A DNA stretch of 42,794 bases, from the NCBI GenBank assembly GCA_902826095.1, contig CADEDN010000029.1, positions 1 to 42,794 of the forward strand, written 5' to 3'. This DNA comes from an uncultured Alphaproteobacteria bacterium (GTDB lineage: Bacteria; Pseudomonadota; Alphaproteobacteria; Caulobacterales; Parvularculaceae). Position numbers and translations under genes: made by a program. Of this stretch, positions 1,086-33,927 are shown one piece after another; the first letter of the stretch is position 1; every line of letters begins with the position of its first letter. The notes beneath the pieces were generated by a model. It was given only the letters and a program-made list of their open reading frames with translations, searched no databases and had not been told where the DNA came from.

Positions 1086-1259
1086 GGGGGATTAGGGACT
1101 GGGGACTGGGGATTAGGGACCAGGATCTGCAGGATAGCGAACAGCGCTCCTGGTTGCTATTCGGGCGACCCTGATCCCTGATCCCTGATCCCTGATCCCT
1201 GATCCCCAGTCCCTAGTCCCTAGTCCCTAATCCCTAATCCCCAGTCCCTAATCCCCAGT
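1086..1259. repeat. Inverted pair of heptamer tandem arrays between tauE and xth
   Basis: On the plus strand, 1087-1121 holds five G-rich heptamers (GGGGATT, AGGGACT, GGGGACT, GGGGATT, AGGGACC). After a 47-bp spacer, 1169-1259 holds thirteen in-phase C-rich heptamers: CCCTGAT five times, then CCCCAGT, CCCTAGT and CCCTAAT variants. The arrays are reverse complements in character. Because the genes diverge, each gene has a C-rich array on its sense strand running into its ATG. The arrays can form a long hairpin, and the G-rich strand fits G-quadruplex spacing (GGGG or GGG runs every 7 nt). Related arrays lie at 5880-6048, 8675-8702, 22467-22546 and 33101-33213. Confidence 0.95.
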
Positions 1260-1263
1260 CCCC

Positions 1264-5213: not shown

Positions 5214-5879
5214 TCAAGCCGGCTTTTGCGGTTCGATGACGTGCTTTGTGAGAAAGGGCGCCTGGCCGATCGCAAACAGCACATTGACCGCCGTGAAGCC
5301 CCAGATCTTCAGATTGACCCAGTCCGCTTCGCCCGCGCAGACAGCGGCCGCCGAAAGGTCGCAGTCGCGCGTCAAAAAGCGCCAGGCGATCTCGTTGGCG
5401 ACCGCCAGCAGCGCGAAGAAGACGACATAGCGCTTCGTCAGCGTCCGCCACGCTTCGTCCGGCAAATGCAAGGCGCCGTCAAACAGCGACCGCAGGAAAT
5501 TTCGGCCGGTCGCAAGCCCGCCCGCGAGCGTCAGCGCGAACATCGCATAGACGATCGTCGGCTTCATGTAGAAGAAGGTCTTGTTGTGGAAGATCAAGGT
5601 GAGCGCGCCGAGAACGCCGATGGCGAGGCCGCTGACCAGAAGCATCGGCGCGATGCGGCGCTCCTTCCAGACGCTGTAGATGAACGCGGCCGCGTAAGCG
5701 GGCATGAAGCACGCGACCGCCAGGAACAGCTCGCCGCCCGGCTCGACCGCGTGTCCGAAGGCCGGCGCGAGCCGTCGCCCGAAAAAATAGGCCACGAAAA
5801 AGATCAGCAGCGGGCCGAAATCGACAAGAAATTTGGCGCGGCCCGAAAGGCGGCGCTGGTTCTGCGGAGCGGGGGTCAT
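5214..5879 (-). CDS. yciB: Inner membrane-spanning protein YciB / septation protein A
   Basis: A 221-residue multi-pass inner-membrane protein of the IspZ/YciB family. It begins with KFLVDFGPLLIFFVAYFFGRR, the family signature, then about five more hydrophobic segments and the conserved DGALHLPDEAWRTLTKRYVVFFALLAVANEIAWR region. Family members affect cell-envelope synthesis and septation. Placement downstream of ftsY in the same orientation is typical of alphaproteobacteria. The ATG (5877-5879) directly abuts the C-rich heptamer array on its sense strand, with no Shine-Dalgarno. Confidence 0.92.
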   Translation of the reverse strand: MTPAPQNQRRLSGRAKFLVDFGPLLIFFVAYFFGRRLAPAFGHAVEPGGELFLAVACFMPAYAAAFIYSVWKERRIAPMLLVSGLAIGVLGALTLIFHNKTFFYMKPTIVYAMFALTLAGGLATGRNFLRSLFDGALHLPDEAWRTLTKRYVVFFALLAVANEIAWRFLTRDCDLSAAAVCAGEADWVNLKIWGFTAVNVLFAIGQAPFLTKHVIEPQKPA

Positions 5880-6048
5880 GGGGATTAGGGATTAGGGATT
5901 GGGGATTAGGGACTGGGGATTTGGACGCGAGCCGTTCGCCGCAAGCGATTTCCTAACACCGAAATTTTCAATCCTGAAACCCAATCCCCAGTCCCCAGTC
6001 CCCAGTCCCCAGTCCCCAGTCCCCAGTCCCTAATCCCCAGTCCCTAAT
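5880..6048. repeat. Inverted heptamer arrays in the ftsY-yciB junction
   Basis: On the plus strand, 5880-5921 holds six G-rich heptamers (GGGGATT, AGGGATT, AGGGACT forms). After a 57-bp spacer, 5979-6048 holds ten C-rich heptamers, six of them consecutive CCCCAGT. On the transcribed minus strand the order is ftsY end, G-rich array, spacer, C-rich array, yciB start. The ftsY stop codon (6044-6046) and its last two codons fall inside the first repeat units. The structure could fold as a long hairpin in the mRNA or as a G-quadruplex. Confidence 0.95.
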
Positions 6049-7132
6049 CCCTCGATACGCCGGCGAGCGCATTTGCAAAACTCCTCGCCTCAAAGGGCTG
6101 CAAATCGTCGACCGTCTCGCCGACGCCGATGAAATGGATCGGCAGGCGATGGCGCTCGGCGAGGGCGACGAGGACGCCGCCGCGCGCGGTGCCGTCGAGC
6201 TTCGTCATCACAAGGCCGGTGACGCCGGCGATCTCCCGGAAAACGTCGGCCTGGGAAAGCGCGTTCTGTCCGACGGTCGCGTCGAGGATCAACAGCGTGT
6301 CGTGCGGGGCCGCGGGGTCGAGTTTTTTCAGGACGCGCACGATCTTGGCGAGCTCGTCCATCAACTCGCGCTTGTTCTGCAGCCGCCCGGCGGTGTCGAT
6401 CAGCAAGACATCGACGCCTTCGGCCCTCGCTCGTTCAAGCGCCTCGAAAGCGAGGCCGGCGGCGTCCGCGCCGGCTTCTTTCGCGACGACCTCGGCGCCC
6501 GTCCGCTCGCCCCAGATCTTCAATTGCTCGACCGCCGCGGCGCGAAACGTGTCGCCCGCGGCGAGCATGACCTTCAGCCCGTCGCGGCGACATTTTTCGG
6601 CGAGCTTGCCGATCGTCGTCGTCTTGCCGGCGCCGTTGACGCCGACGGTCAAGATCACATGCGGGCGATGCGCGGGATCGATCGTCAGCGGTTTTTGATG
6701 GTCGGCGAGGGTCGCCGCGACGATGTCGGCGAGCGCCGATTTCACCTCGTCTTCGGAGATCTCCTTGTTGAAGCGGTCGCGGGCGAGCGCGTCGCGAAGC
6801 CGTCCGGCGGCGCCGACCCCGAGGTCCGCGGCGATGAGCGCCTCCTCAAGCGCGTCGAGCGTTTCGGCGTCGAGTTTGCGCTTGGCGATGACGGCGATGA
6901 CGCTGTCGGAAAGCCGTTGCGACGAGCGCGCAAGACCGCTGGCAAGACGCGCGAAAAAGCCTTGTTTCACCGGCGTTTCCGCGATGTCGCTCGCGTCTCG
7001 CGGCGACGTCGGAGGCGACGCGCCTTTAAGCGCCGGCGACGCGGTTTCCGGCGCGCCGTCCGAGGGCGACGCTCTCTCGTCAGCGTGCTTTTTACCAAAC
7101 AGTCCCGAAAAAAAGTTTTTGGGTTTTGTCAT
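6044..7132 (-). CDS. ftsY: Signal recognition particle receptor FtsY
   Basis: A 362-residue SRP-receptor GTPase that docks ribosome-nascent-chain-SRP complexes at the inner membrane. The first ~60 residues are a variable, charged A-region (start MTKPKNFFSGLFGKK); the helical N domain follows at about 65-140. The G domain has the P-loop GVNGAGKTTTIGKLA, AGDTFRAAAVEQL, DTAGR, and TKLDGTARGG. The final residues Ser-Arg-Asp and the stop are encoded in a heptamer repeat, so the C-terminus may have been remodelled by it. Gene order mtaB-ftsY-yciB is conserved in alphaproteobacteria; here a small opposite-strand gene separates mtaB and ftsY. Confidence 0.96.
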   Translation of the reverse strand: MTKPKNFFSGLFGKKHADERASPSDGAPETASPALKGASPPTSPRDASDIAETPVKQGFFARLASGLARSSQRLSDSVIAVIAKRKLDAETLDALEEALIAADLGVGAAGRLRDALARDRFNKEISEDEVKSALADIVAATLADHQKPLTIDPAHRPHVILTVGVNGAGKTTTIGKLAEKCRRDGLKVMLAAGDTFRAAAVEQLKIWGERTGAEVVAKEAGADAAGLAFEALERARAEGVDVLLIDTAGRLQNKRELMDELAKIVRVLKKLDPAAPHDTLLILDATVGQNALSQADVFREIAGVTGLVMTKLDGTARGGVLVALAERHRLPIHFIGVGETVDDLQPFEARSFANALAGVSRD

Positions 7133-7212: not shown

Positions 7213-7332
7213 ATGGCTATGGCCAAGAGAAAGGCCGCCAAACCGGCGGCGAAGCGCAAAGCGAAGAAGACGGCGAAGAAAGCCGCCAAGCCGGCGAAGC
7301 GCAAGGCGAAGCGTCGGAAGAAGGCCGCCTAA
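7213..7332 (+). CDS. Histone H1-like lysine/alanine-rich small basic protein
   Basis: A 39-residue protein made almost only of Lys, Arg, Ala and Pro, with repeated KAAKPAK and KRKAKK units. It resembles the C-terminal tail of bacterial histone H1/HctB-like or AlgP-like proteins, and probably coats or compacts DNA or RNA without sequence specificity. ATG 7213 follows GGAG at 6 nt; an in-frame ATG at 7201 would add four residues. A strong terminator follows 20 nt after the stop, which supports an expressed monocistronic gene. It lies opposite to mtaB and ftsY. Its composition matches the tail of the MarR protein at 3900-4412. Confidence 0.75.
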   Translation: MAMAKRKAAKPAAKRKAKKTAKKAAKPAKRKAKRRKKAA

Positions 7333-7414: not shown

Positions 7415-8674
7415 TCAGGCGTCAAGGCGTTCCCCGAGCGCGATCTCGCCGTCGCGGCCGGTGACGCGCAGCCTGGCGATGTCGCCCGGCGCGCCGATGC
7501 TGTTCGCGCTGAGCCGTACCGGCGCGAAATTGCTGAGCCGCGCGCGTCCGCCGCTTTCAACGACCGCATCGTCGATATGTCCGACAAGACTGTCGAGGAA
7601 CGCCGATGTCGCCGCTTCGCCTGCCGCACGCAGTCGCCGCGCCCGGTCGGCGATGAGGGCGCCGTTCAGCTGCGGCATGCGCGCCGCCGGCGTTCCCGAC
7701 CGCGCCGAATAGGGAAAGACGTGCAGGTAATTGACGCCGGCTTCGGCGATGAGGCCGAGGCTTTCTTCAAACATCGCGTCGGTTTCGGTCGGAAAGCCGG
7801 CGATCAGGTCGGCGCCGATCGCAATCTCCGGCCGGCGCGCCCGCAAGGCGGCGGCGAGGGCGATCGCGTCCTCGCGCGTGTGGCGGCGCTTCATGCGTTT
7901 CAAGATGAGATTGGAGCCTGCCTGCAACGAGAGATGAAGATAGGGCGCGACGCGTCGGTCGCCGGTCAGCCGGTCGAACAGCGCCTCATCAATCTCGGCG
8001 CAGTCGACTGACGACAGGCGCAGCCGGAAGAGGTCCGGCGCCCCGTCGAGAATGGCGCCGACGAGCAGGCCAAGCCGCGGCGCCCCCTCAAGATCTTGAC
8101 CCCATGACGTCATGTCGACGCCGGTCAAAACGATCTCGGCATGTCCCGCGGCGACGAGGCGGCGCGCGGCGGCGACCGCGTCGGCGATCGGGACGGACCG
8201 CGACGGGCCGCGCCCATAGGGAATGATGCAGAACGTGCAGCGGTGGTCGCAGCCGTTCTGGATCTGCAGGAAAGCGCGCGCGCGATCGCCATAGCCGTCG
8301 ATCAGATGCGCGGCGTTCTCGCGCACCATCATGATGTCGTTGACGGCGACCCGCATTCTAGACGCCGCAAGAGCGGTCCACGCGGCGGGATCGAGTTTCT
8401 CGGCATTGCCGATGACGGCGTCGACCTCGGTCATCTTCGCAAAGGCGTCGGCGTCGATCTGCGCGGCGCAGCCGGTGACGACGACTTTGGCGCCGGGATT
8501 GTCCCGGCGGGCGCGCCTTATTTGCTGGCGGGTCTGGCGGACGGCCTCATTGGTGACGGCGCAGCTGTTGATGATGACAGCGTCGCCAAGTCCCGCCTGC
8601 CCGGCGAGACGGCGCATCGCTTCGCCCTCAGCGAGGTTGAGGCGGCAGCCGAGCGAGATGATCTGCGGGTTCAA
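7415..8674 (-). CDS. mtaB: tRNA t6A37 methylthiotransferase MtaB
   Basis: A 419-residue radical-SAM enzyme that adds the methylthio group to t6A37 of tRNAs reading ANN codons. It has the N-terminal UPF0004 domain (IISLGCRLNLAEGEAM and INSCAVTNEAVRQTRQ, whose Cys bind the second Fe-S cluster), the radical-SAM motif CDHRCTFC in QNGCDHRCTFCIIPYGRG, and a C-terminal TRAM-like domain. The start is TTG 8674, directly abutted by four heptamers of the GCAACC type; no ATG lies nearby. lptG ends 60 nt upstream on the same strand, so co-transcription is likely. Confidence 0.93.
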   Translation of the reverse strand: MNPQIISLGCRLNLAEGEAMRRLAGQAGLGDAVIINSCAVTNEAVRQTRQQIRRARRDNPGAKVVVTGCAAQIDADAFAKMTEVDAVIGNAEKLDPAAWTALAASRMRVAVNDIMMVRENAAHLIDGYGDRARAFLQIQNGCDHRCTFCIIPYGRGPSRSVPIADAVAAARRLVAAGHAEIVLTGVDMTSWGQDLEGAPRLGLLVGAILDGAPDLFRLRLSSVDCAEIDEALFDRLTGDRRVAPYLHLSLQAGSNLILKRMKRRHTREDAIALAAALRARRPEIAIGADLIAGFPTETDAMFEESLGLIAEAGVNYLHVFPYSARSGTPAARMPQLNGALIADRARRLRAAGEAATSAFLDSLVGHIDDAVVESGGRARLSNFAPVRLSANSIGAPGDIARLRVTGRDGEIALGERLDA

Positions 8675-8702
8675 GGTGTCAGGTTGCTGGTTGCAGGTTG
8701 CA
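8675..8702. repeat. Heptamer array (GCAACC type) abutting the mtaB start
   Basis: On the plus strand the units are GGTGTCA, GGTTGCT, GGTTGCA, GGTTGCA. On the mtaB sense strand this reads TGCAACC, TGCAACC, AGCAACC, TGACACC and then the TTG start. It has the same 7-nt period and the same position relative to the start codon as the other arrays, but a different unit and no clear partner arm. Confidence 0.8.
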
Positions 8703-8734
8703 GGAAGAAAGAAGCAGGCGCGACCTGTCGCCCG

Positions 8735-21334: not shown

Positions 21335-22489
21335 ATGACGGCGCTCGATCTCACCTCGGCAAAGCCCGACGCGGAAGCGCGAATGCGCCCGCTTTTCGGC
21401 CTCGCGCGCGCCGAAATCGCCGACGTCATCGGCGAAGCGCTCAGCCTCGACGCGAAGAAAGCGCGGATGCGCGCGAGCCAGCTCTGGCGCTGGGCGTATC
21501 ATTACGGCGTCACCGATTTCGAGGCGATGACAGACATCGGCAAGGAGATGCGCGCCGCGCTTGCGGGGCTGTTCAGCCTTGAGCGCCCGAAAGTCGTCGA
21601 CCGGCAGGTGTCGATCGACGGCACGCGGAAATATCTGATCGAAGTCGCGCCGGGCGCCCTGATCGAGTGCGTCTATATCCCCGATGTCGGCAAGGCGGGG
21701 GCGCTTTGCGTCTCGAGCCAGGTCGGCTGCACGCTCAATTGCACCTTCTGCCACACGGGGACGCAAGCGCTCGTCAGGAACCTCACCGCCGGCGAGATCG
21801 TCGCGCAAGTGATGGCGGTCAAGGACGATCTCGCGGAATGGCCGTCGGGCGGCGACGACCGGCGGCTGTCGAACATCGTCTTCATGGGCATGGGCGAGCC
21901 GCTTTATAACCTCGACAATGTCGCGCGCGCGATCGAAATCATCGCCGACGGCGACGGCATTTCGATTTCGCGCCGGCGCATCACGGTGTCGACCTCGGGC
22001 GTCGTGCCGGAAATCGCGCGGCTTGGCGAGAGCGCGGGAACGATGCTGGCGATTTCGCTCCACGCGACGAATGACAAGCTCCGCGACGAACTGGTCCCGA
22101 TCAACCGCAAATATCCGATCAATGAGCTTCTCGACGCCTGCCGGACCTATCCCGGCGTCTCGAACGTCCGCAAGATCACGTTTGAATATGTGATGCTGAA
22201 AGGCGTCAACGATTCCGACGCCGAGGCGCGCGCGCTCGTCCGCCTGCTGAAGGATATTCCGGCGAAGATCAATCTGATCCCGTTCAATCCCTGGCCGGGC
22301 GCGCCTTACGAATGTTCAAGCTGGGAGCGGATCGAAGCCTTCGCGGCGATCGTCAACAAGGCCGGCTACGCCTCGCCGATCAGGACGCCGCGCGGGCGCG
22401 ACATCCTCGCCGCCTGCGGGCAATTGAAGTCGGAAAGCGTGAAGATAAGGGCGAGCGAAAGGGTGAAGGCAGTAGGCAGTGGGCAGTAG
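21335..22489 (+). CDS. rlmN: 23S rRNA A2503 / tRNA A37 C2-methyltransferase RlmN
   Basis: A 384-residue radical-SAM methyltransferase. The cluster motif is CTLNCTFC in [30 protein letters not shown], the STSGVVPEI loop, SLHATND and the C-terminal [16 protein letters not shown], whose Cys forms the methylated intermediate, are all conserved. ATG 21335 gives the usual MTALDLT start; the frame is open to 21287. The last residues (about KAVGSGQ) and the stop codon are encoded by the G-rich heptamer array, so the C-terminus has been altered or extended by it. Confidence 0.95.
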
Positions 22490-22546
22490 CTTGCCCGTTC
22501 CCTATCGCCTATTGCCTATTGCCTATTGCCTGCTGCCTACTGGCCC
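22467..22546. repeat. Inverted heptamer arrays (GCCTATT type) at the rlmN-arfB junction
   Basis: Three G-rich units AGGCAGT, AGGCAGT, GGGCAGT (22467-22487) end in the rlmN stop TAG. Three bases later, eight in-phase C-rich heptamers run from 22491 to 22546 (TTGCCTA is the commonest) and stop one base before the arfB ATG. The two arrays are complementary and could fold into a hairpin with a very small loop in the mRNA. Confidence 0.92.
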
Positions 22547-22547
22547 G

Positions 22548-22964
22548 ATGCGCGCAGGCCCCATCCTCATCGACGAAAGAGACATCGAGGAGCGGTTCAT
22601 CCGCGCCTCGGGGCCTGGCGGTCAGAACGTCAACAAGGTCTCCTCCGCCGTGCAGCTCCGCTTCGACGCGATGCGCTCGGCGGCCTTGTCAGATGCGGTG
22701 CGCGCGCGACTCCTCAAGCTCGCGGGCGCGCGGGCGACGAAGGACGGCGTCATTCTCATTGAAGCCTCCCGCCATCGCGATCAGGCGAGGAACCGCGCCG
22801 ACGCCCGCGCGCGCCTTTCCGCGCTTGTCGAAAAAGCGGCGACGCCGCCAAAGAGGCGCATTGCGACGAAAACCCCGAAATCGCAAATGCGAAAACGCCT
22901 CGAAGGCAAGGCGCGGCGGAGCGAGGTGAAGCAGGGGCGCGCGCGCGTCGCACAAGAGGAGTGA
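22548..22964 (+). CDS. arfB: Alternative ribosome-rescue factor ArfB
   Basis: A 138-residue peptidyl-tRNA hydrolase of the RF-1/ArfB (YaeJ) type that frees stalled ribosomes. The catalytic GGQ loop is at 24-26 in RASGPGGQNVNKVSSAVQLRFD, and the basic C-terminal tail (RKRLEGKARRSEVKQGRARV) enters the empty mRNA channel. Length matches the family. I place the start at ATG 22548; the frame stays open through the heptamer repeat to 22479, but those residues (RLLPIAYCLLP-like) are repeat-encoded. No Shine-Dalgarno is seen. Confidence 0.92.
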   Translation: MRAGPILIDERDIEERFIRASGPGGQNVNKVSSAVQLRFDAMRSAALSDAVRARLLKLAGARATKDGVILIEASRHRDQARNRADARARLSALVEKAATPPKRRIATKTPKSQMRKRLEGKARRSEVKQGRARVAQEE

Positions 22965-31992: not shown

Positions 31993-33093
31993 TCACGCCT
32001 TCGGCCCCTTCTTCCCGCCGCCATGCTCCCTGCCGGCGATTGGTTCGGCGAGGGGCCAGCGGGCGCGCGGCGCGAAGGCGAGCGCTTCCGCGAAAGAAGG
32101 AACAAGGCCTCCGCGGATCCGCTCGACGCCGGCCCAAGCGATCATCGCGCCGTTGTCCGTGCAGTATTTCGCCGGGGGGATGATGAGGCGCCAGCCGCGC
32201 GCTTGGGTCATCGCGTCCAGTTTTTTGCCGATCGCGGCGTTCGCGGCGACGCCGCCGGCGACGACGAGGGTTTTGGCGAGTCCTGCCGCCTCAAAGAGAT
32301 CCATGGCGCGCGCCGTCCGGTCGGCGAGATGGAAGGCGATCGCCGCCTGAAAACTTGCCGCAAGATCGGCGATGTCCAAATCCGTCGGATCGCTGATCGC
32401 TTCGGCTTCAAGCCGCAGCGCGGTCTTCAAACCGGAAAGCGAAAAATCGCAGCCCTCGCGCCTCGCGAGCGGTCTTGGAAAGTCATACCGGTCGGCGCGG
32501 CCGGACGTCGCCGCCGCTTCAATGCTTGGTCCGCCGGGTTGGGCGAGGCCGAGAAGTTTTGCCGATTTGTCGAACGCTTCGCCGGCCGCATCGTCGATGG
32601 TCGTGCCAAGCCGCCGGTAGCGCCCGACGGCTGAGACTTCAATGAGCTGAGTATGGCCGCCGGAAATGAGGAGGAGCAGATAGGGAAACCGCGCGTCCTC
32701 GGTCATCCTGACCGAGAGCGCATGCGCCTCGAGATGGTTGACCGGCGCCAGAAGCTTTCCATGGGCGAGCGCGACCGCCTTGGCGGCGGTCAGACCGACC
32801 ATCACGCCGCCGATGAGGCCCGGTCCCGCCGTCGCCGCGACGGCGTCAAGATCGGCGTAAGTATGTCCTGACATTTCAATCGCTTGCGCGATGACGCCGT
32901 CAATCCGCTCGACATGCGCGCGCGCCGCGATCTCGGGCACGACGCCGCCATAGGCCGCATGCCGGTCATATTGGGCGAGGGTGACATTTGACAGAATTTC
33001 CGCGCCGCCGCTGTCCGCCGTCGCGCGGACGACCGCGGCGGCCGTGTCGTCGCAGCTTGATTCAACGCCAAGAACTAGGAGGGAGTCGGCCAT
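31993..33093 (-). CDS. tsaD: tRNA N6-threonylcarbamoyladenosine transferase TsaD
   Basis: A 366-residue ASKHA-fold protein that transfers threonylcarbamoyl to A37 of tRNA. The N-terminal LVLGVESSCDDTAAAVV, metal motif NHLEAHALSV, LLISGGHTQL, and VVAGGVAANAAIGKKL are conserved. ATG 33093 is the family start; the frame extends to 33141 into the heptamer repeat, adding repeat-encoded residues such as RRLPNACC. The stop faces the hydrolase gene across 78 bp that contain a 12-bp palindrome (31978-31989) but no clear terminator. Confidence 0.95.
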   Translation of the reverse strand: MADSLLVLGVESSCDDTAAAVVRATADSGGAEILSNVTLAQYDRHAAYGGVVPEIAARAHVERIDGVIAQAIEMSGHTYADLDAVAATAGPGLIGGVMVGLTAAKAVALAHGKLLAPVNHLEAHALSVRMTEDARFPYLLLLISGGHTQLIEVSAVGRYRRLGTTIDDAAGEAFDKSAKLLGLAQPGGPSIEAAATSGRADRYDFPRPLARREGCDFSLSGLKTALRLEAEAISDPTDLDIADLAASFQAAIAFHLADRTARAMDLFEAAGLAKTLVVAGGVAANAAIGKKLDAMTQARGWRLIIPPAKYCTDNGAMIAWAGVERIRGGLVPSFAEALAFAPRARWPLAEPIAGREHGGGKKGPKA

Positions 33094-33100
33094 CGAGCAA

Positions 33101-33213
33101 CAGGCATTAGGCAATCGGCGGCAGGCAGTAAAGAACGACAACGAGGCGCTCGCCCATTGCCCATTGCCAATTGCCTATTGCCTACTGCCTAATGCCTGCG
33201 CCCTATTCGCCCA
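33101..33213. repeat. Inverted heptamer arrays (GCCTATT type) between tsaD and hemD
   Basis: G-rich units of the AGGCATT/AGGCAGT kind occupy about 33101-33131. After about 20 bp, six in-phase C-rich heptamers (GCCCATT, GCCCATT, GCCAATT, GCCTATT, GCCTACT, GCCTAAT; 33152-33193) plus degenerate units run to within a base of the hemD ATG. As at tauE/xth the genes diverge, and each has the C-rich array on its sense strand upstream of its start. Confidence 0.9.
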
Positions 33214-33927
33214 ATGAAAGTCATCGTCACACGCCCCTCTCCAGACGCGGAAGCGTTCGCGGCGGAAGTCGCGAAAGCCGGCGCCGAGCCGATCCTCTCG
33301 CCGGTCATGGTCATACGCCAGCGCCCGCATGCGCTTGATCTTGCCGGCGTCGGCGCGCTCGCCTTCACCTCGGCGAATGGCGTAAGGGCGTTTTCGCTGC
33401 TGACGCGCGAGCGAGGGCTGCCGGTCTTTGCTGTCGGCGCGGCGACGGCGGATGCGGCGGCCGAAGCGGGCTTTGCCCAGATCACCACCGCGCGGGGCGA
33501 CGCCATGAGCCTTGCGCAAGTCGTTGCTCAGGCGAAACCATCAAAGCAGGTCCTCCACTTAGCCGGCAGCGACCGCGCCGGCGATCTCGCCGCCATGCTC
33601 GGCGATTATGGCGTCAAGGCCCGCCGCGCGGTGATCTATGACGCCGACAAATATGATCGCCTGGCGACGCCCGCGGCTGACGCCTTGAGACAAAAAGACG
33701 ATCCCGTCGCGGTGACGCTGTTCTCCCCCCGGTCGGCGCGGCTCTTTATCGAGCAGGCGGCGTTTGACGGCCTCGTCGAAACGCTTCAGCGGGTCGCCGC
33801 CCTTTGCCTGTCGCCGGATGTCGCGCGGGCGGCGGCGGCGGCGGACTGGGGCGCGATCGAAACCGCGCGAATGCCGACGTCTGAAGACGTCCTTGACCTC
33901 GTCGCCGGGCGGATAGGCCGCACATAG
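33214..33927 (+). CDS. hemD: Uroporphyrinogen-III synthase
   Basis: A 237-residue HemD-family protein that cyclises hydroxymethylbilane to uroporphyrinogen III. It has the two alpha/beta lobes with VIVTRPSPDAEAFA, FTSANGVRAF, HLAGSDRAGDL, and VTLFSPRSARLF. It starts directly after the heptamer array with no Shine-Dalgarno. hemC usually lies between tsaD and hemD in related bacteria but is absent here. Confidence 0.88.
   Translation: MKVIVTRPSPDAEAFAAEVAKAGAEPILSPVMVIRQRPHALDLAGVGALAFTSANGVRAFSLLTRERGLPVFAVGAATADAAAEAGFAQITTARGDAMSLAQVVAQAKPSKQVLHLAGSDRAGDLAAMLGDYGVKARRAVIYDADKYDRLATPAADALRQKDDPVAVTLFSPRSARLFIEQAAFDGLVETLQRVAALCLSPDVARAAAAADWGAIETARMPTSEDVLDLVAGRIGRT

Follow-up and report, generated by a model that had tools for sequence, protein, structure and literature searches.

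Heptamer arrays at gene junctions of an alphaproteobacterial genome as probable inverted arms of small elements that encode PF05635 proteins

Introduction

The heptamer repeats of cyanobacteria, which go under the name STRR, are the closest known analogue of the arrays analyzed here, as an earlier note on this DNA had already suggested. G-rich heptads of the types GGGAATC and GGGGA(C/T)T have been published for Xanthomonas and Nostoc (Rehm 2015, PMC4692102). In the sections of that paper covered here, the heptads resemble the present arrays in unit, period and intergenic place, in forming convergent inverted pairs, in overlapping stop codons, and in that the G-rich strand is antisense near starts and sense at stops; these sections describe no linked gene family, and their text contains neither XCC0516 nor S23 nor helix bundle. 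Another heptamer, TAACTGA, lies within several nucleotides upstream of start codons in Beggiatoaceae (PMC4679880, the part of the text considered), a place that it shares with the present arrays; unlike them, it forms direct repeats of a single unit, with one inverted case, and helix bundle, S23 and intervening sequence do not occur in that part of the text.

A second relevant system is the intervening sequence of 23S rRNA, with its S23p/IVP open reading frame (ORF). According to the covered part of PMC4990558, the intervening sequence of Coxiella burnetii has a 28-bp terminal stem that is cut by RNase III, and tandem heptamers lie upstream of its S23p ORF. The elements described below share with 23S intervening sequences the PF05635 family, the stem-forming inverted terminal repeats and, in the case of Coxiella, the heptamers before the ORF; however, 23S intervening sequences occupy a helix of 23S rRNA, from which RNase III excises them, whereas the present elements lie between protein genes (PMC4990558, same part).

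A 2013 paper (PMC3936711), the covered portion of which does not contain the word "heptamer", pointed out PF05635 genes in cas loci, and PMC11637426, in its covered portion, merely names one PF05635-type gene. Among the matches listed from the open-licence literature, we found no paper linking heptamer arrays to PF05635, the Coxiella heptamers apart, and neither the relation between unit and protein nor the comparison of empty and occupied junctions that are reported below. Compared with the published heptads of Rehm and colleagues, the distinctions of the present case are that the arrays bracket PF05635 genes, that one genome contains several unit classes, and that arrays are present or absent at single junctions. 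We consider it likely that the heptamer arrays belong to a family of small elements as their inverted terminal arms, and that a complete element encodes a PF05635 protein.

Results

The window, i.e., the whole stretch of 42,794 nucleotides analyzed here, is contig 29 of a 3.79-Mb genome (hereafter, the host genome). Using direct reading and a period scan, we found period-7 arrays at all five gene junctions for which the earlier note had reported them (Table 1); they had been described as exact, and their units are in fact imperfect. Four of the five loci are inverted pairs, in which a G-rich arm is followed by a spacer of 11 to 60 nt and by a C-rich arm; the G-rich partner that had been noticed at four of the five junctions is this other arm. 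The fifth locus, array C, is a single short array of three to four units, of the type found on a gene-bearing element on contig 44. At threshold 12, the scan of the window returned seven segments with period 7, none with periods 4, 5 and 8-11, and one each with periods 6 and 12; arm 1 of element E is too irregular for the scan, and was identified by reading and by its fold. Elements A and B contain two or more units of the form GGGNATC or GGGGA(C/T)T, by which the published heptads and STRR are recognized, while D, E and array C consist of other units. According to Pfam, the flanking genes are divergent in two cases (TauE/SafE and exonuclease III-like; tsaD and hemD) and in line in three (ftsY and ispZ; MtaB-like and LptF/LptG; rlmN and the RF-1-domain gene). 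It should be noted that the start codons are predictions, because the gene calls come from a simple in-house caller.

Table 1. Coordinates of the period-7 arrays in the window, with their units and adjoining genes.
Feature	Position	Strand	Units and context
Element A, arm 1	1086..1120	-	GGGGATTA/GGGGACT heptads; C-rich minus strand reaches ATG of TauE/SafE gene (333-1085, minus; Pfam)
Element A, spacer	1121..1168	.	without PF05635 gene
Element A, arm 2	1169..1263	+	CCCTGAT/CCCTAAT/CCCCAGT heptads; ATG of exonuclease III-like gene (Pfam) directly after, at 1264
Element B, arm 1	5880..5919	-	C-rich minus strand abuts ATG of ispZ (5214-5879, minus)
Element B, spacer	5920..5979	.	
Element B, arm 2	5980..6052	+	minus strand provides TAG stop of ftsY (6044-6046, minus), inside the arm
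Array C	8680..8704	+	lone; CAGGTTG/CTGGTTG; just upstream of MtaB-like gene (7415-8674, minus); span in earlier note 8675-8702
Element D, arm 1	22467..22489	+	GGCAGTA; provides TAG stop of rlmN, within the arm (22487-22489)
Element D, arm 2	22501..22542	+	GCCTATT; 5 nt before ATG at 22548 of RF-1-domain (ArfB-like) gene (Pfam)
Element E, arm 1	33101..33129	+	GGCATTA/GGCAATC/GGCAGT, irregular; beside start of tsaD (31993-33093, minus)
Element E, arm 2	33152..33197	+	GCCCATT/GCCTATT; 16 nt before ATG of hemD at 33214

We scanned 520 kb of the host genome (C1:1-340,000 and C4:1-180,000, large contigs already known to hold hits) at threshold 14, and obtained 17 segments with period 7, ten and six with the multiples 14 and 21, and 0-5 with the other periods from 3 to 20; a first-order Markov simulation of the 520 kb gave no segment at period 7. 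Exact scans of the whole genome gave 103 hits for the pattern CCCHRRT and 25 for GCCHRNT. The reversed GCCHRNT pattern gave no hits, and reversed CCCHRRT gave 40 (22 + 18), a control that is not clean, as the same arrays are also matched by the pattern in reverse.

The placement of arrays relative to genes was determined in 738,924 bases, about a fifth of the genome, including some stretches chosen for holding hits; the resulting set comprises 52 arrays, two GC-only arrays having been removed and one merged pair separated manually. In 38 of 43 cases, a called gene boundary is no more than 25 nt from the outer edge of an array, the median distance being 3 nt, compared to 7 of 41 cases for the inner edge; six arrays have no gene call on the outer side, and three are inside a gene call. 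Thirty-eight outer edges near a boundary divide into 22 at starts and 16 at stops. Thus, the bias to gene starts, the absence of which had been named in advance as a refuting result, is present in this fifth of the genome and extends to gene ends, and the claim that the C-rich array always stands before a start is borne out in that arrays run into start codons, but not in its exclusiveness. Where neighbors are separated by less than 700 bp, the G-rich array precedes the C-rich one in 18 of 19 cases. A pair of this kind reads alike on both strands and sits at gene edges, which accounts for the C-rich strand before starts.

This placement can also be read as regulatory, i.e., the C-rich strand before starts would be a selected control of translation or transcription, acting through a hairpin, G-quadruplex, i-motif or binding protein, as proposed for other heptamers. 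The position at starts and the stable predicted hairpins are consistent with this possibility, as are the in vitro quadruplex formation by such heptads and the transcription in Xanthomonas described in the covered sections of PMC4692102. However, arms adjoin stops nearly as often as starts, the flanking genes have unrelated functions, the same junctions are free of arrays in most of the sister genomes read, and Rehm and colleagues could not identify a role in gene regulation (PMC4692102, same sections); we therefore consider selected regulation to be quite improbable as the origin of the arrays.

Two further observations on the arrays of the host genome (G000) are worth recording. A single array (G000:C1:264868-264905) mixes the units GGCAGTA and GGGAATA, i.e., the word changes within the array, not far from the gene-bearing element with unit GGGAATC. 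In addition, a class-1 heptad array, next to other palindromic sequence, is part of a repeat of about 10 copies (e.g., L176:419-620); the copies are on contigs 37, 32, 46, 49, 55, 47, 53, 48, 21 and 19. Eight of the 10 copies are less than about 600 bases from a contig end, which indicates that the assembly breaks there and that array counts are lower bounds.

Some of the array pairs in the host genome enclose a short gene, and the first four seen belong to PF05635 (23S_rRNA_IVP, four-helix bundle), with E values from 2e-33 to 3e-38. The genome has five PF05635 matches, and all five are beside heptamer arrays, with arrays on both sides in four; the element on contig 44 has a weak far arm. The adjoining units are GTGGTTA, GGGGACT, GGCAATG, CAGGTTG and GGGAATC, and three of these are unit types of the window: GGGGACT (contig 37), GGCAATG (contig 13) and CAGGTTG (contig 44). 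The family search of the genome gave no PF05635 match on the window contig, and the window copies are therefore called empty; no gene relic was recognized in the window spacers.

PF05635 was found in 17 of 61 relatives and in 62 of 398 Pseudomonadota (58 above the curated cut-off). We fetched 107 PF05635 loci, 19 of them from named plasmids (17 cyanobacterial, one from Gemmatimonadota and one from Azospirillum; 34 records matched) and the rest from Pseudomonadota; three duplicates and four loci too near a contig end were dropped, leaving 100. A period-7 array adjoins the PF05635 gene in 82 of the 100 loci, on both sides in 48; a period-8 array adjoins it in eight, so that period 7 or 8 is present in 88, compared to 0-2 loci for the other periods (4-6 and 9-12). 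Counted per window, 130 of 200 windows beside PF05635 genes contain a period-7 array versus 28 of 1335 control windows of the same size from the same loci; among these controls, period 8 was found in three and other periods in at most 16. In the sense of the gene, the upstream array is G-rich in 57 of 61 cases and the downstream array is C-rich in 65 of 69. Counting against the association, 12 of the 100 loci have neither a period-7 nor a period-8 array. Fifteen of the 107 loci were tested against Rfam and gave no match at gathering score, i.e., no rRNA location was detected; a blastn search of element B against plasmids gave no match.

Several of these loci deserve mention in their own right. 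In L217, L230, L267 and L270, the PF05635 genes are bordered by period-8 arrays (e.g., CCCTACTC and TCCTGCCC). Three plasmid loci, L263, L268 and L270, have the PF05635 gene with its arrays between neighboring genes, cas6-cas4 in two (cyanobacterial) and cmr2-cmr3 in the third (period-8). In L185, L187, L194, L213 and their relatives, the gene is in the nuo operon, mostly, as judged by eye, between nuoC and nuoD; these loci come from three alphaproteobacterial families with different heptamer words, pointing either to an old insertion or to a hot spot.

The distant relationship of PF05635 proteins to Avd of the diversity-generating retroelements raises the possibility that the protein acts like Avd and that the arrays are made by a reverse transcriptase. 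Of four host-genome proteins tested, one gives a weak match to the bAvd model (E 1.8e-06, under the cut-off). By contrast, a match to RVT_1 was found in none of nine genomes of the genus, which makes an Avd-like role unlikely here, and RVT_1 is present in only two of the 17 relatives with PF05635 versus eight of the 44 without it. Altogether, we regard a retroelement origin as very improbable, and continue to read the arrays as arms of PF05635-encoding elements.

Arrays and PF05635 also tend to occur in the same genomes. Among the 398 Pseudomonadota, PF05635 is present in 10 of 17 genomes with CCCNRNT arrays versus 52 of 381 without, a comparison that joins two samples whose genome handles agree as far as they are listed. 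Of the 61 relatives, 11 have CCCHRRT arrays, and eight of these 11 have PF05635, versus nine of the 50 others; some of these hits are the gene's own arms. GCCHRYT arrays were found in all four relatives with a PF05635 gene of the GCCTACT-like type (in one, only as its own arm) versus three of the 57 others. In G337 (392 hits of CCCGATT/CCCGAAT) and G210 (12 hits), there is one PF05635 match each, bordered by that same word: in G337, the gene interrupts a pair that by eye resembles accB-accC, with the C-rich arm directly before the ATG that follows; the G210 match has a truncated domain, 202 nt past which a pattern hit provides the second arm. Three findings speak against the association: seven of the 17 genomes with CCCNRNT arrays have no PF05635, including G179 and G203 with CCCGATT or CCCGAAT arrays; G042, which is 100% complete, has paired arrays and no PF05635 match; and G375 has a single CCCGAAT hit, with no array at its sole PF05635 locus (L311). 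Separately, we noted a long perfect GCCTGCT array (G031:C1:411215-411308) in a genome without PF05635, where only the plus strand matched.

To compare occupied and array-free junctions, we used sister genomes at three of the five window junctions. At ftsY-ispZ, stop and start are 164 nt apart in the host genome, compared to six of seven sisters that are free of arrays, with stop and start at most 27 nt apart, touching or overlapping. In the seventh sister, G005, the distance is about 70 nt, occupied by a G-rich and then a C-rich stretch that may be a decayed element, so that not all sisters have an empty junction here. No true ftsY match was obtained for G003, and the best FtsY match in a scan of named genomes was 67%, there being no near relative among them. 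The tauE-xth junction has no array in five of five sisters, one of which has a further gene's length of sequence, and lptG-mtaB has none in two of two. A fourth site is the region before surE. In the host genome, it holds a complete GGGGACT element, whose ORF extends across the C-rich arm and at its end overlaps surE in an ATGA; no array is present before surE in G002, G003, G004, G007 and G008 (in G002, serS is not the neighbor), and G001 has a GCCTACT element directly before surE, at the start of its contig, with the upstream gene out of view. Thus, presence and absence at orthologous sites were encountered at ftsY-ispZ, tauE-xth, lptG-mtaB and before surE. Inspection of the compared junctions by eye revealed no target-site duplication, the arms running into codons, and no excision product was found. 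The suggestion that the arrays were born locus by locus as translation switches is not supported as the main explanation, given that similar arrays bracket all five PF05635 genes of the host genome and many elsewhere, at the same kind of junction, and are absent in most of the sisters read.

The relation between unit and protein was analyzed in an earlier set of 76 loci, of which 40 have both arms and 66 entered the correlation. Since the count of 7-mers shared between arms was uninformative (75 of 76 loci, with a permuted mean of 60), unit profiles were used in its place. In the 40 loci with both arms, these are built from one unit, in inverted orientation, and differ by a median distance of 0.08, versus 0.46 from locus to locus. 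The more two proteins differ, the more their units differ (r 0.50, reached by none of 2000 permutations; 66 loci), and the correlation persists when pairs sharing a flanking gene are removed (r 0.40, again none of 2000); only 17 of the 66 loci have a unit similar to that of the nearest protein from differently flanked loci. Many related loci have flanking genes in common, namely, the nuo operon (four recognized by eye), ddl-murB and cysD-cysN; therefore, a part of the link between unit and protein is plain common descent, with both arms changing together in place. At ddl-murB and in the nuo operon of related genomes, place and period are kept while the unit drifts, which lends partial support to the proposed turnover of units in place. 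The proposed repeat family, constant in period, strand and position but with a changing unit, is supported. The arms, then, are kept alike while the word drifts. For XCC0516 of Xanthomonas, we had expected the nearest relative to be the GGGAATC locus, GGGAATC being the common Xanthomonas unit; it is instead nearest to loci with CACCTCA/ATCTCAC-like units, an outcome that decides neither way, its own flanks being unseen.

Equal units in the two arms also bear on replication slippage, which, acting alone, would let heptads arise and expand at tolerant junctions where PF05635 genes merely happen to be, with the inverted order resulting from strand bias of the slippage. Mixed units within one array, the seven of 17 array-bearing genomes without PF05635, and the period-8 versions in a few loci are all compatible with this process. 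Nevertheless, slippage leaves unexplained both these equal units and the presence of arrays on the flanks of one small gene family across phyla, and the ftsY-ispZ spacer of the host genome is without counterpart in the six sisters with the short stop-to-start distance. Hence, we consider slippage alone to be unlikely, and prefer to view the arrays as the arms of PF05635-encoding elements.

Discussion

In such a family, a complete element would consist of a G-rich heptamer array, one PF05635 gene and a complementary C-rich array, and would be located between neighboring genes, often reaching from the stop codon of one to the start codon of the next; the window copies would be of the same design, lacking the PF05635 gene. 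The architecture, the association with PF05635, the junction position, the presence and absence at orthologous sites, the link between unit and protein, and the predicted stem are documented above and in the folds reported here. RNA folding predicts stems for the four paired loci of the window, with z scores of -5.8, -7.1, -3.9 and -2.8, and 0, 0, 0 and 1 of 200 shuffles fold as well; the hairpin potential that had been proposed for the arrays is thus supported by predicted stems that are stable. In the predicted fold of ftsY-ispZ, the stop and start codons are at the foot of the stem.

Beyond these findings, we infer mobility, processing by RNase III, and recognition of the unit by the protein. 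The element would be maintained as a selfish insertion. Once transcribed, its arms would pair into a stem, and the insert would be looped out, with the stop and start codon brought together, so that an insertion into an operon could be tolerated. This stem would probably be cut by RNase III. The PF05635 protein is suspected to recognize or maintain its own unit, because the unit varies with the protein family and does not diverge between the arms of a single element. By analogy, the element may be read as an insertion that folds itself out of a message, as the 23S intervening sequence does out of rRNA.

With regard to classification, the class-1 arrays of the host genome are of the same kind as the published G-rich heptads. 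Compared with 23S intervening sequences, the window copies have a predicted stem at four of the five loci, have no PF05635 ORF, and are not in 23S rRNA; the present elements fall outside the 23S class proper because of their location and, for the window copies, the missing gene. Accordingly, we assign the window arrays to the heptad kind and file the whole as a variant of the intervening-sequence kind. MITEs are non-autonomous elements with a parent. Like them, the present family has, within one genome, empty copies that end in inverted repeats alongside related copies that bear the gene. It differs from them in having termini that consist of heptamer arrays whose unit varies; moreover, no duplication of the target was seen, and no recombinase is known.

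We further put forward, tentatively and as a conjecture, that the family is a class of mobile elements without a known recombinase, distributed across phyla, the only gene of which encodes a four-helix-bundle protein. This protein might read a lineage-specific seven-letter word, keep both arms in that word, and place copies, with or without the gene, precisely between stop and start; the 23S rRNA intervening sequences and the heptamers of cyanobacteria and Xanthomonas might then be the two known faces of this class.

These results link two puzzles that have been studied separately, i.e., the heptamer repeats of cyanobacteria and Xanthomonas, and the 23S intervening-sequence protein found outside rRNA. 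The heptamer repeats gain a partner gene, and recognition of the unit by a protein of known fold is predicted. The elements also offer a reason why arrays are found at the edges of codons in the nuo, acc and cas operons, among others. In practical terms, start codons near arrays may be wrongly annotated, and assemblies may break there. Finally, a minor observation concerns the ftsY start in the window, beside which there is a small ORF rich in lysine and alanine (7219-7332) in the opposite orientation; a similar sequence of other length also adjoins ftsY in sister genomes.
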